Source of the DNA: Chlorobiota bacterium | GTDB lineage: Bacteria; Bacteroidota; Ignavibacteria; Kapaibacteriales; NICIL-2 | NCBI GenBank assembly: GCA_026415505.1 | Contig: JAOAGY010000039.1 | Coordinates: forward strand, 1 to 64,000 | DNA: 64,000 nt | Direction of reading: 5' to 3' | The notes under the pieces: model-generated | Told to the model about the DNA's origin: nothing | What the model saw: only the letters and a program-made list of their open reading frames with translations | Databases searched by the model: none | Shown here: piece by piece, positions 1,234 to 27,442 of the stretch | How the letters are laid out: each line of letters begins with the position of its first letter | How positions within the stretch are numbered: position 1 is the first letter of the stretch | Translations under genes and position numbers: made by a program

Positions 1234-3126
1234 CTATACAACGACGACAGGAATGTCGAGCGAATGTCGGACAGGGGAAATCGTCGCGCCAAAGAGCACG
1301 TCCTTCAATCCACGATGACGGTGACCGCCCATGACGAGGATGTCCGCTCCGCACGCTCGAACCATACGGACAAGCTCGCGAGGAACATTGCCGTGCCCAA
1401 TGAGCGCACTACACTCGATCCCGCGCTGGCTGATCGCCTCGCACAGTGCCGCCAGATATTCCTCGTCGGCACGTGCTTCGGCGTCGTAGGCGCTCGCATA
1501 GACAGTGCCGACGGCTCCCTCGACGACATGGAGCAATACGATGCGGGCGCCATGCTGCTGCGCTAAGGATACCGCTTGCCCGACGACTTGCGGATCTTTG
1601 GCGTCGTGGGCGATCGCTGCTGCGACGACGCGATACTGCGTCGCCTGATCGAGAGTCGCTTCGACACTCTCGAGCACGGCACGCCACGACCGCACTGGCT
1701 CGCCTCGCCAACGACGGAGAATGGGCAGCAGAAACGTTGCTCCCAGGAGCAACGCCAATCCAGCAGCTACCACGACAACGAGCACCGTTACCACCGGCGA
1801 ACGACCGATCGCGATCCATTCGGCAACGGTCGTTGCTGCCAGCCGCACGTTGAGCACGACGATGATCGTCGCAGCTATCCAGCCGAGCGCACGCACCCAC
1901 AGCGGACTGACATGCTCGCCCATCAACCGACGGTTGGAAGTAAAATGCACCAGCGGGATAATTGCGAACGGCAATTGGACGCTCAGGATGACCTGGCTGA
2001 GAATCAGCAACCGATAGGTTCCCTGCTCGCCCATTGTCACCAGCACAGCAATCGCCGGCACGATGGCAATTCCCCGCGTCACCAATCGCCGTAGAAACGG
2101 ACGCATCCGAAATCGAACGAATCCTTCCATGACGATCTGCCCGGCGAGCGTTCCTGTCAGTGTCGAGCTTTGCCCGGCAGCAATGAGCGCTATAGCGAAC
2201 GCGGTGCTCGCCAGAGCCGTTCCCAACAGCGGTGTCAGCAATGCATGTGCTTGCTCCAGCTCCGTCACTTCGATGCCACGTGCATGGAAGACCGAGGCTG
2301 CCAAGACCAAAATCGCCGCATTGACGAAAAAGGCAGCATTGAGAGCAATGGCAGTGTCCACCAAATTGTACCGGCACGCTTGACGCTTGCCATCGGTGGT
2401 CTGTTCGTAGGCGCGGGTTTGCACCAATGCCGAATGGAGGTAGAGATTGTGCGGCATGACTGTAGCCCCGATGATACCGAGCGCCACATAGAGCGCACCA
2501 TCGGGCAGCGAGGGCACCAGACCAGTGACGACCTCTGCCGCGACTGGTTGCGCCAATGCCATCTCGATGACGAAGCACATGCCTACAACGAACACCAGCG
2601 ACAAGATGAATGCTTCGAACCGACGGACACCGAGATTTTGAATCGCCAGCAGCAACAGCGAATCGGCACCCGTGACGAGAACGCCCGCCAGTGTCGGTAT
2701 CCCGAACAGAAGGTGCAGACCGATCGCTGTACCGAGCAGTTCGGCAAGGTCGCATGCAGCAATGGCGATTTCTGCCAACACCCACAGTGCGTATGCCATC
2801 GGTCGAGGATAATGCTCACGGCACGCCTGTGCTAAATCGCGCCCGGTGGCGATACCGAGTCTCGCCGCCAGCGTTTGCACCAGCAGCGCGATGAGGTTCG
2901 ACAGCACCAACACCCACAGCAGACTATACCCGAACCGTGCACCGCCTTCGAGGTCGGTCGCCCAGTTGCCAGGGTCCATATAGCCCACACTGACCAGGTA
3001 CGCCGGACCCAAAAACGCGATCAACCGTTTCCACCCTCTGACGTCGGCGGTGATCGGTACACTGCGGTGCACTTCAGGAAGCGAAACGTACTGCTCTGTC
3101 GTGTGGCTTCCCGCCCGGTATTCCAT
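1234..3126 (-). CDS. Nramp-family divalent metal transporter fused to a C-terminal universal stress protein domain
   Basis: 630 residues, against about 410-450 for plain MntH. The first 460 residues hold about 11 hydrophobic segments and both Nramp signatures: DPGN at 51-54 in TM1 and MPHN at about 224-227 in TM6, whose D, N and M side chains bind Mn2+ or Fe2+ in known structures. After a linker, residues 490-630 form a UspA fold that ends in a nucleotide-loop pattern GGHRHRG...FGATISPVRH followed by VPVVVV, the typical Usp terminus. The transporter should import Mn2+/Fe2+ with protons at the inner membrane; the cytosolic Usp domain could gate it with ATP or AMP, which is inference. A TATTTTCG box sits 31 bp before the ATG. 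Confidence 0.92.
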   Translation of the reverse strand: MEYRAGSHTTEQYVSLPEVHRSVPITADVRGWKRLIAFLGPAYLVSVGYMDPGNWATDLEGGARFGYSLLWVLVLSNLIALLVQTLAARLGIATGRDLAQACREHYPRPMAYALWVLAEIAIAACDLAELLGTAIGLHLLFGIPTLAGVLVTGADSLLLLAIQNLGVRRFEAFILSLVFVVGMCFVIEMALAQPVAAEVVTGLVPSLPDGALYVALGIIGATVMPHNLYLHSALVQTRAYEQTTDGKRQACRYNLVDTAIALNAAFFVNAAILVLAASVFHARGIEVTELEQAHALLTPLLGTALASTAFAIALIAAGQSSTLTGTLAGQIVMEGFVRFRMRPFLRRLVTRGIAIVPAIAVLVTMGEQGTYRLLILSQVILSVQLPFAIIPLVHFTSNRRLMGEHVSPLWVRALGWIAATIIVVLNVRLAATTVAEWIAIGRSPVVTVLVVVVAAGLALLLGATFLLPILRRWRGEPVRSWRAVLESVEATLDQATQYRVVAAAIAHDAKDPQVVGQAVSLAQQHGARIVLLHVVEGAVGTVYASAYDAEARADEEYLAALCEAISQRGIECSALIGHGNVPRELVRMVRACGADILVMGGHRHRGLKDVLFGATISPVRHSLDIPVVVV

Positions 3127-3215: not shown

Positions 3216-4808
3216 TCAGCGGCTGACGACGAAGGTCGCTTGCGCGGAGTACTCTCCAGCTCGGAGCAGAACCAAATAGCTCCCTGCTCGGAGTGGTGGC
3301 AGCGCCACACGACTGGTACCTTCCGGTAAGAGTCCCCTGAACAGCTCGCCGACGAACTGTCCTCGAATGTTGTAAAGCTCGACTGTTGCCGATGCCAGAC
3401 GTCGCAAGCGCACAACGACTTCGCCGCTTGTTGCGACCGGATTCGGCACGACGGTGACTGCATCGGTACTCGGTTCGATCGGCGATACACTGGATACCGA
3501 TCGCCGCTTTATCACGTTGAGCGGTGCGATGCGGTCGCCCAAGATTGCCGCGGTGTCGTCGGGCGTCGCGTCGAACCAGTTGAGCAGAATATCGGCGTAG
3601 AGCCGCCGGTAGTCGTTTTGGTAGATGAGATCGCCGTTGGAATCCAACTCCTGGAGGTTCGGCGCTGTCCCGAAGCGCGAGGAGCGAATACTCGATCCGT
3701 CCCCGAAGACGAACTGCACGCCAGCAGCTCCGTGGTCTGTACCGCGCGAACCGTTTTCGTAGGGACGGCGCCCGAACTCGGAGATCGTAATGCCGACGAC
3801 GCGCTGTGCGAACCCTTGCGCAATCGCATCGTCCATGAATTTGGCGACACCGGAAGCCAGTTGGGCAAGCAACGACGGATGCACACCTTTGGTCACATCG
3901 TCGGCTTCCTGTTGCTGTACGTGCGTGTCGAAGCCGCCCAGATAGCACAGGTACACTTTCGTTTTCAATCCGCCAGAAATCAAGCGGGCGATCATACCGA
4001 GCTGCGCCGGCAAACCGCTATTGCCGTAGTCAACGGTCGTTCGACCACGCGAGTAGGCATCGAGCACCGCTTGGGAGTAGCGATCCGCTTGCGCCGCGAC
4101 CGAGCGAATGTAGTTGAACTCGCGAGCATACGCATCCAACTCTGGCAATGGTTCTTCGTCAGGCGTGGCGCCGCGACCAAGTTCGAAAAATTTCTGTGGG
4201 TCGGTCAACGCGATGCCGACATCACCTTTTGCCGATTGGAACAAGAGCGACAGCGTTCCGCCGATCTGCACGCACAAGGGATGTTCCGGCAAGACCGCCG
4301 GGAAATCCGGCAATACTCGCGCGAAGAAACGCCCGATCCACCCTTCGTTCAATCGAACAAACGGATCCGACGAGTTGATGCCGGAGAGCCAAATATCCGT
4401 CGAACGGAAGTGCGATAGATTCGGGTTGTCGTAGCCGACATCCTGGACGATCGCCAATCGCCCTTGATCCATGAGTCCGCCGAATCCGCCGCCATAGATG
4501 CCGCTGCCCGCAAGCGCTGGGTGCAAATAGAGATCGGTTCCGCTCCAGCGCCACGCTTGATTTTTCGGGATCGCCAGTGTCGGACGGATGCGGTAGTACT
4601 CGTCGTTCTCGGCGGGGATAACGGTGTTGAGGGCATCGTTACCACCGAACAGTTGGATGATGATCAGCACGTTGTCGTTTTCCATCACCCCCGGCGGTAG
4701 CGACAATAGCGGTGAGCTGGCTCGCACGGGTAGTCCAGCGATGTGTGTTGCTGCGCTCGTTGTCGCCAGCGCGGCAGCGGTGCGGAGGAGAAAGTCTCGT
4801 CGTCGCAT
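3216..4808 (-). CDS. DUF1501 family secreted protein with Tat-like signal and T9SS type A sorting domain
   Basis: 530 residues. The N-terminus MRRRDFLLRTAAALATTSAA matches a twin-arginine signal (RRxFL followed by a weak hydrophobic stretch), as is common in DUF1501 proteins, which belong to the alkaline phosphatase/sulfatase superfamily. The core runs to about residue 440 (FGGNDALNTVIP, GFDTH, FGRRPYENGSRGTDHG). From about 453 to the end there is a classical T9SS type A C-terminal domain: VVPNP, VELYNIRGQFVGEL, then LRAGSYLVLLRAG and a basic end. The protein should thus be exported to the periplasm, then across the outer membrane and anchored or released there. It lies 18 bp downstream of its usual partner, a DUF1800 gene. 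Substrate unknown. Confidence 0.93.
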   Translation of the reverse strand: MRRRDFLLRTAAALATTSAATHIAGLPVRASSPLLSLPPGVMENDNVLIIIQLFGGNDALNTVIPAENDEYYRIRPTLAIPKNQAWRWSGTDLYLHPALAGSGIYGGGFGGLMDQGRLAIVQDVGYDNPNLSHFRSTDIWLSGINSSDPFVRLNEGWIGRFFARVLPDFPAVLPEHPLCVQIGGTLSLLFQSAKGDVGIALTDPQKFFELGRGATPDEEPLPELDAYAREFNYIRSVAAQADRYSQAVLDAYSRGRTTVDYGNSGLPAQLGMIARLISGGLKTKVYLCYLGGFDTHVQQQEADDVTKGVHPSLLAQLASGVAKFMDDAIAQGFAQRVVGITISEFGRRPYENGSRGTDHGAAGVQFVFGDGSSIRSSRFGTAPNLQELDSNGDLIYQNDYRRLYADILLNWFDATPDDTAAILGDRIAPLNVIKRRSVSSVSPIEPSTDAVTVVPNPVATSGEVVVRLRRLASATVELYNIRGQFVGELFRGLLPEGTSRVALPPLRAGSYLVLLRAGEYSAQATFVVSR

Positions 4809-4826: not shown

Positions 4827-6374
4827 TTAGCACAAATGGTAATCGGGAGCCTTCACGACCGCTCGTAGCAACGTCCGCAGCCGCGAACCAATCGCCTGCG
4901 AATCATTGACAATGGATGCCCACTCGTAGCTCGGCGCACCGGACAGAAGCATGTCGGTGTAGTATCGGAGACGATCGGCACTGAGCGGACGCGGCAGGAG
5001 AAGGCGGCACAGCTCTACCACGAACGTATCGGCTGATTGCCAGTTCGGTAGCGAGCGAACCAGTTGCTGTGCCTGTTGATCACTGAGCGTCGCGATGATT
5101 TGCTGTGCGTATTGCACTCGCTGCGGTATCGTTTTGGTGCTGATCCACGTTCGGTACCCCTTCCATCCCGATACGTCCGGTGGGTCCATCAAATCCTGTT
5201 CCATACGCGCTAGCGCGGCGGCAGCATTTGGTAGCTGGACGCCGAGCTGCCTTGCCAAGCCGACGACGTATTCGGCTGGCGTTTTGATCTGGACACCTCG
5301 ATTGGCGGGATCGAAAAAGTGCTCGCTGGTCAGTAACGTCCGCACCAACGGGCGCAGCTCGAAATCATTGGCGATGAAAACGTTCATGAGCGCTGCCAAA
5401 GCGTCGCTATCGGTTCCCTCTGGGTTGCTGTACACAAAAAAGCGGTAGAGTTTACCGACGATGAACCGAGCGATCGCTTCGGGGCGTTGCTGAAAGAGAA
5501 TCTCGATCATGCGGCGTACTTCCTGGGTCCGCACCAGGTACTCGGTATTGGTATCCTGATCGCGGGCGGGGATCGTATAGCCGAGATACTGTTTGGCGCC
5601 CGTGTCGTGGTCGCTCGGCTTGAACCACGTGTTGAAGATACCATTCGGCGCTGGGGCATCGCTATAGAGCGATGCCTTCCAGCCGGTCAGCACCCGTGCA
5701 GCTTCTTTGACGTCACCTTCGGTGTACCAGCCGATACCGGTCGAGTAAAGCTCCATCATCTCGCGGGCATAGTTTTCGTTCGGTTTGCCAGCGACGTTGA
5801 GCGTACCGCCGAGATATTCGAGCATGGCACAATCGAGCGTGACCTCCTCCAGAAACGCACGGAAGTTGGCAAGCCTCATCTGCCGCAACATCAGGTTCTG
5901 GCGGTAGAGCACTTGTGGCGGGATGTAGCCGAGATCGTAGGTGAATTCGGTCGTGAAATGCCCACTCCAGAACAGCACGAGCTTTTCGCGGGCGGGCAGC
6001 GTCTCGGTACGCATCAGGTCAATCCACCACTGCTGAAGCTGGGTGAAATTGTTTTGCCATGTCGCTTCGATCTGACCGCGAGTGACGATGTCCACACCGT
6101 CGGGGTCCTCTTGCGCTTGATTTACCCATGCACCGGGCGACGGAACCGGCGGTTCGCTGTTGGGATCGCCCAGCAGCATGTCCACTGCCTCTTCGGCACG
6201 TAAACCGGTGAGTTGTTCGACCAATACCGGTGTCGGACCCAGCGTCGCTCGGCGTAACAGGTGCAGTGCATCGTCGCGCGACAGAGGCTGTCGGTATGGC
6301 TCGATTGATGCAGTCGGTACAGCAGGACGCACCGGCGATCGGCGCTCCAATCCCAAAAAAGCTCGACGATTCAT
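4827..6374 (-). CDS. DUF1800 family protein
   Basis: 515 residues from the ATG at 6374, which has GAGG about 8 bp upstream; longer open frame upstream is rejected because the family begins with MNRRAFL. Conserved DUF1800 strings are present: LLRRATLGPT, KLVLFWSGHFTTE, NLMLRQMRLANFRAFL, NENYAREMMELYSTG and ARVLTGWKA. The family is almost always encoded next to DUF1501, as here, and its biochemical role is unknown. The start has the twin-arginine string RRAFLG but no hydrophobic stretch follows, so a free-standing signal peptide is doubtful; it may be cytosolic or exported with its partner. No sorting domain is seen. It heads a minus-strand unit DUF1800, DUF1501 and perhaps the Nramp gene. Confidence 0.92.
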   Translation of the reverse strand: MNRRAFLGLERRSPVRPAVPTASIEPYRQPLSRDDALHLLRRATLGPTPVLVEQLTGLRAEEAVDMLLGDPNSEPPVPSPGAWVNQAQEDPDGVDIVTRGQIEATWQNNFTQLQQWWIDLMRTETLPAREKLVLFWSGHFTTEFTYDLGYIPPQVLYRQNLMLRQMRLANFRAFLEEVTLDCAMLEYLGGTLNVAGKPNENYAREMMELYSTGIGWYTEGDVKEAARVLTGWKASLYSDAPAPNGIFNTWFKPSDHDTGAKQYLGYTIPARDQDTNTEYLVRTQEVRRMIEILFQQRPEAIARFIVGKLYRFFVYSNPEGTDSDALAALMNVFIANDFELRPLVRTLLTSEHFFDPANRGVQIKTPAEYVVGLARQLGVQLPNAAAALARMEQDLMDPPDVSGWKGYRTWISTKTIPQRVQYAQQIIATLSDQQAQQLVRSLPNWQSADTFVVELCRLLLPRPLSADRLRYYTDMLLSGAPSYEWASIVNDSQAIGSRLRTLLRAVVKAPDYHLC

Positions 6375-6527
6375 TGCATGCCTCGTACAAGTGATGGCGC
6401 ACGCCAAATTATTGCACGCAGCACTAACACCGCAGCGGCAACATAGTAACACACGCAAAAAACATTCCACCGATTCGCCAACACCGCACGATTTTTGCAA
6501 CCCTCTCACTGACTCCACGATTGCTCG

Positions 6528-26992: not shown

Positions 26993-27070
26993 GACCCTGA
27001 GACAAGCTCAGGGTGACGGTGCGTGTGTTCAGAGTGACGGGCGCTTGCGAGTGTCCACTGCTTGTCATGC
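26993..27070 (+). repeat. 78-bp direct repeat, copy 1
   Basis: Identical over 78 bases to 27181-27258. It spans one inverted palindromic unit, a 45-bp unique-looking linker and the first bases of the next unit, so a block of the island was duplicated. Confidence 0.9.
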
Positions 27071-27180
27071 TGAACTTGTTTCAGCATCTCACCGCATCCC
27101 TGCCCGTCATGCCGAACTTGTTTCGGCATCTCACTGCACCTCCGCCCGTCATGCCGAACTTGTTTCGGCATCTCGAATCA

Positions 27181-27258
27181 GACCCTGAGACAAGCTCAGG
27201 GTGACGGTGCGTGTGTTCAGAGTGACGGGCGCTTGCGAGTGTCCACTGCTTGTCATGC
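27181..27258 (+). repeat. 78-bp direct repeat, copy 2
   Basis: Second copy, offset by 188 bp from the first with no mismatch seen. The lack of divergence suggests a recent duplication or gene conversion. Confidence 0.9.
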
Positions 27259-27442
27259 CGAACTCGTTTCGGCATCTCACCAAAAGACCCTGAAACAAGT
27301 TCAGGGTGACTGTGGAGAGAGAATGAGACCCCGAAACAAGTTCGGGGTGACATTGAGAAGGAGCGACGTGACCCTGAAACAAGTTCAGGGTGACGCGCAT
27401 TGCGTTTCGGGGTATGCGCATCGAGGAGGTCGAGTGCACCAC

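Follow-up and report, generated by a model that had tools for sequence, protein, structure and literature searches.

According to reviews of the T9SS, its cargo enters unfolded by Sec, and the system itself transports proteins in folded form (PMC9127263, PMC9251779). Type A cargo (TIGR04183/PF18962), e.g., the gingipains and enzymes of F. johnsoniae, carries a C-terminal sorting domain (CTD) that forms a seven-strand beta-sandwich (PMC9127263). On the side of Tat, low hydrophobicity and a positively charged c-region are documented traits of the signals, and the signal of the Tat substrate SufI is quoted as SRRQFIQASGIALCAGAVPLKASA (PMC5539426). A two-step route for folded cargo has been described as Tat-then-T2SS secretion, where Tat acts at the inner membrane and a second machine accepting folded proteins follows (PMC9127263). 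Proteins of the family DUF1501 (PF07394) are themselves predicted to be Tat-exported in a study on bacteria with chitin synthase genes, in which they share an operon with DUF1800 (PF08811) (PMC5122149), and for PVC bacteria it was suggested that proteins of DUF1501 clusters are Sec-targeted (PMC4452313).

The window, i.e., the whole stretch of 64,000 nucleotides of DNA analysed here, contains on its minus strand a DUF1501 gene (3216..4808), whose product of 530 amino acids carries a twin-arginine signal and a T9SS type A CTD. The protein resembles type A cargo in its C-terminal beta-sandwich domain, and its host possesses SprA and tens of CTD proteins; unlike this cargo, described as Sec-entering (PMC9127263, PMC9251779), the DUF1501 family has a twin-arginine signal. 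With Tat substrates such as SufI it shares RRxF[LI], a weakly hydrophobic core and often a basic c-region, but it bears an additional C-terminal signal for outer-membrane export by the T9SS. The DUF1501/DUF1800 pair is the same as beside the bacterial chitin synthases; those pairs, however, have been described mainly for Proteobacteria, and the excerpt of PMC5122149 mentions no T9SS tail. Passage of folded cargo through Tat and then through a further machine would parallel the Tat-then-T2SS route, with the difference that the second machine proposed here is the T9SS with its C-terminal sorting domain. Known before were thus the Tat prediction for DUF1501 and the Sec entry of T9SS cargo, whereas the link between a Tat signal and a T9SS tail appears to be new. 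This novelty is provisional, since the literature covered on T9SS with Tat consists of open-licence papers, among which no Tat-dependent T9SS cargo is reported.

Two export signals in the DUF1501 family

The open reading frame starts with ATG, with AAGGAG a few bases upstream, and its product matches PF07394 with 58.7 bits (gathering score 27). Homologues were collected from 80 relatives and a 296-genome sample of the phylum (Bacteroidota), which gave 116 sequences; the alignment A1 comprises 93 non-redundant homologues across Bacteroidota, all of which match PF07394 as well. Named relatives, at 82-87% identity, are metagenome assemblies of Candidatus Kapabacteria/Kapaibacterium, which places the window in this lineage. 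Two further DUF1501 paralogues with twin-arginine signals are encoded in the window's own genome, and their T9SS tail is clear in one (L092, G000:C15) and sub-threshold in the other (L093, G000:C21).

The window protein has a signal peptide with Tat features, predicted to span residues 1-31 (4716..4808, minus strand) with probable cleavage near VRA-SS; it combines the conserved RRxF[LI], a core of low hydrophobicity and a basic residue in the c-region. Its N-terminus, MRRRDFLLRTAAALATTSAATHIAGLPVRASS, indeed holds the twin-arginine start of the MRRRDFLL type claimed in the earlier note, and RRDFL (residues 3-7; 4788..4802, minus strand) satisfies the TatP default pattern RR.[FGAVML][LITMVF]. 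Taken by itself, this pattern wrongly flags about 7% of the Sec proteins of Gram-negative bacteria (PMC1182353). An R[RK]xF-like motif was present in 116/116 homologues, with none discarded. Within A1, the first Arg is found in 93/93 sequences, the second position is Arg in 88/93 and Lys in 5/93, and Phe at +2 is kept in 90/93. One sequence per 60%-identity cluster was also retained on its own; across the resulting 53 clusters the entropy is 0 at R3, 0.14 at R4 and 0.23 bits at F6, compared with 2-3.4 bits at most other signal positions. The motif RRxF[LI] is kept about as strictly as residues of an active site, whereas the signal around it varies, and since R3, R4 and F6 stay constant or nearly so while their neighbours drift, this is not the behaviour expected of a plain basic n-region. 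Even homologues with 20-35 extra residues ahead of the motif, e.g., SLEHGQAHEKDHQSWTRRSFL, retain it. Loss of the RR pair in close relatives, which the earlier note had named as an argument against a Tat signal, did not occur in any of the five congeners; elsewhere in the phylum the pair is likewise kept, save for the five RK sequences. RK in place of RR is poorly tolerated by Tat.

Curated Tat models match part of the family at loose E-values (PF10518, TAT_signal, 46/93 at E<=1; TIGR01409, 18/93 at E<=0.01), and one homologue (L231) exceeds the curated cut-off of TIGR01409 as well as that of TIGR04183. The window protein is in neither set of matches. No Tat HMM exceeded its cut-off on the window protein, nor did any PF10518 match in its own genome.

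At the other end of the protein, the earlier note had seen a clear T9SS type A domain (residues 454-528; 3225..3449, minus strand). For the window protein this wording is generous, because TIGR04183 is barely above its curated cut-off (24.4 bits; cut-off 23) and PF18962 lies below (16.7 bits; cut-off 27). Weak as the score is in this single member, it is strong across the family: 85/93 homologues are recognised by the NCBIfam and Pfam models for the T9SS type A domain (TIGR04183 at E<=0.01), in which the PNP start motif and the late G and Y positions are kept. The AlphaFold2 model calculated with A1 (mean pLDDT 89.7) places seven strands between residues 451 and 528, where the pLDDT is mostly above 90. 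The pairing of both signals in one protein is therefore real, albeit not special to the window protein, as it is common among Bacteroidota DUF1501 proteins; to judge from the aligned homologues, the dual-signal architecture is widespread and conserved in the phylum.

Export machinery and other T9SS cargo

Both tatA and tatC, the presence of which had been raised as a point to check, are found in the genome, which encodes two adjacent TatA/B genes. TatC was detected in the own genome and in 79/80 genomes searched, and the positions equivalent to F94 and E103, the twin-arginine site of E. coli TatC (PMC5539426), are kept in 6/6 TatC proteins checked. Furthermore, a QrcB-like molybdopterin-type subunit of the own genome (L293, G000:C7:14527) bears the Tat-type signal SRRSFMAMLSAAMAVTAAACRRP (SRRSFMAMLSAAMAVTAAAC), which makes it at least one other likely Tat client. 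SprA is likewise present in the own genome and in 79/80 genomes searched, and SprA_N in 228/296 phylum genomes. Co-occurrence of TatC and DUF1501 was dropped as evidence, since TatC occurs in 295/296 phylum genomes and the comparison is therefore uninformative.

In the own genome, 67 places match TIGR04183, 47 of them over the cut-off. The CTD set was assembled from the family search and fetched stretches, with frames obtained for 60 places, among which Tat-type signals appear in two, both of them DUF1501 proteins (L135 and L156). The hydrophobicity of the h-region, scored as the mean of the best 12-residue Kyte-Doolittle value, averages 1.55 (0.98-2.18) for DUF1501 proteins (n=93) versus 2.71 (2.01-3.56) for non-DUF1501 CTD proteins from the own genome (n=49), the latter being credible starts selected at a hydrophobicity threshold of 1.9, a choice that exaggerates the difference. 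Nine proteins were left out of this set; four gave equally hydrophobic starts on further search, and the remaining five are contig-truncated or have no credible start. With their strongly hydrophobic signals, the other T9SS cargo of this genome looks Sec-type, and the weakly hydrophobic h-region of DUF1501 bears out the earlier suggestion that its Tat-like signal is plausible. Moderate evidence for Tat comes from the c-region, in which a stricter count gave a basic residue in 46/93 DUF1501 signals versus 16/49 other CTD proteins.

Possible export routes

Tat export of the folded DUF1501 protein, followed by T9SS export via the CTD, appears to us the best reading of these sequences and a likely one. 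It draws directly on the two signals and how well they are conserved, on the finding that the genome encodes both machines, on the difference from other cargo and on the predicted folds. The protein would fold in the cytoplasm, probably with metal ions, and its RRDFL signal would be recognised by TatC, whereupon the Tat translocase would move it in folded form to the periplasm. There, the signal peptide would be cut at the predicted site, and the folded C-terminal beta-sandwich would hand the protein to the T9SS (PorV/SprA), which would export it to the cell surface or the medium and remove the CTD. Set against this route are the RK variants (5/93), the sub-threshold Tat HMMs on the window protein and the occurrence of CTD-less DUF1501 proteins in T9SS-bearing genomes.

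According to the main rival explanation, the RR pair is merely part of a basic n-region, and the DUF1501 protein passes Sec unfolded like other T9SS cargo before it reaches the T9SS. Sec tolerates RR signals, and some proteins that fit the twin-arginine pattern are Sec proteins (PMC5539426, PMC1182353); in the putative Tat set of B. subtilis, only PhoD and YwbN are Tat-dependent, and RR signals can be Sec-routed (PMC1182353). A plain n-region would, however, not hold R3 in 93/93 and Phe at +2 in 90/93 sequences while the neighbouring positions drift. The RK sequences fit Sec entry, as does a CTD protein of the own genome (L151) that has RRILF and a Sec-like core of strong hydrophobicity, yet core hydrophobicity is far lower in DUF1501 signals than in the 49 other cargo proteins, and their common basic c-region residues are a moderate point in the same direction. 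Taken together, we regard entry by Sec as unlikely.

Even less probable in our view is Tat export of a protein whose CTD does not route it via the T9SS, so that its site of action is the periplasm or the inner membrane. Retention of the CTD in 85/93 divergent homologues, along with its conserved PNP, G and Y positions, argues against this option, as does the confident seven-strand sandwich, which is the fold of T9SS CTDs (PMC9127263). What speaks for it is the weak CTD score of the window protein, the score below cut-off in paralogue L093, and the existence, in both T9SS-bearing and T9SS-less genomes, of DUF1501 proteins that share the RR signal but lack the CTD, from which it follows that the core function does not require a surface location. 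A DUF1501 match at E<1e-40 was obtained in 119/296 phylum genomes, and the only two SprA-less ones among them (G081 and G328) have frames of 400-405 amino acids that lack the CTD and keep KRREFL/KRKEFL. This joint absence also counts against a periplasmic end point, although as weak evidence, since CTD-less forms occur in several SprA-positive genomes, too. Loss of the CTD tracking loss of the T9SS was considered as a broader pattern and is not leaned on, as the two SprA-less genomes fit and many CTD-less forms in T9SS-bearing genomes do not.

Transport by Tat and then by the T9SS was put forward in the earlier note as a widening of the accepted export route. This holds insofar as reviews name Sec only, and less so for the folded state: folded cargo is already accepted for the T9SS (PMC9251779), so that entry by Tat would be compatible with the way it works. 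From a family that carries both signals and is conserved across the phylum, it would follow that the T9SS also takes proteins folded in the cytoplasm and perhaps loaded with metal, as the T2SS does. In this context, DUF1501 proteins could serve as a natural test of whether folding of T9SS cargo precedes its contact with the translocon, and they offer a possible means to present enzymes that are folded in the cytoplasm or carry cofactors at the surface of Bacteroidota.

The DUF1501 body and the DUF1800 partner gene

A reason for the use of Tat could lie in the DUF1501 body (residues ~46-440; 3489..4673, minus strand), if it were a metal hydrolase that loads its metal in the cytoplasm. A fold search with the DUF1501 model gave the alkaline phosphatase superfamily as nearest neighbours (phosphodiesterase 8yk5, sulfatases and alkaline phosphatase 1alk), with a best match at E 2e-7 and TM-scores of only about 0.3, and a sequence search of the PDB with DUF1501 returned no match. 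N57, D58, S132, H133, D294, H296, E344, D358 and H359 are invariant (93/93), and we tentatively take them to resemble the Asp/His ligands and the Ser nucleophile of this superfamily. The model thus points to an alkaline phosphatase superfamily fold, and this predicted fold would allow metal binding, in keeping with the cofactor thought possible in the earlier note.

Directly upstream of the DUF1501 gene, separated by an 18-nt gap, lies the DUF1800 partner gene (4827..6374, minus strand), encoding 515 amino acids that begin with MNRRAFLG and lack a hydrophobic core and a C-terminal sorting domain. Its start is fixed by the relatives L038, L040, L042 and L050, which have in-frame stops 1-3 codons ahead of it; a longer version from GTG at 6518, which would include a hydrophobic stretch, was ruled out because these stops directly precede MNRR. 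DUF1800 is located just upstream on the same strand at nearly all DUF1501 loci with enough flank, including 20/20 sampled outside the order. The adjacency is not universal, as L021, L030, L191 and L192, four loci that all belong to the family f7, contain no DUF1800 within 1.5 kb upstream. An N-terminal M-x-RR motif is present in 17/17 DUF1800 sequences of the order and in 5/20 elsewhere (loci L035-L053 and L246-L265); in neither group is the motif followed by a hydrophobic core, and no CTD was found in these sequences. The AlphaFold2 model of DUF1800 is confident and mostly helical with a poorly ordered N-terminus, and gave no significant match in a PDB fold search.

Hitchhiking through Tat is known for hydrogenase subunits (PMC10924467), and by analogy DUF1800 may be a Tat hitchhiker with DUF1501; alternatively, it may be a cytoplasmic partner or maturation factor. 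More specifically, DUF1800 could bind folded DUF1501 in the cytoplasm and pass through Tat with it, the T9SS then carrying the complex via the single CTD of DUF1501, and the RR of the Kapabacteria DUF1800 being a relic of, or a helper to, Tat targeting; we hold this full scenario to be doubtful.

Elsewhere in the window, 1234-3126 on the minus strand encodes a fusion of an Nramp-type metal transporter with a universal stress protein (Usp) domain, and 27064-27394 contains two short tandem arrays, the units of which measure 42 and 41 bp.
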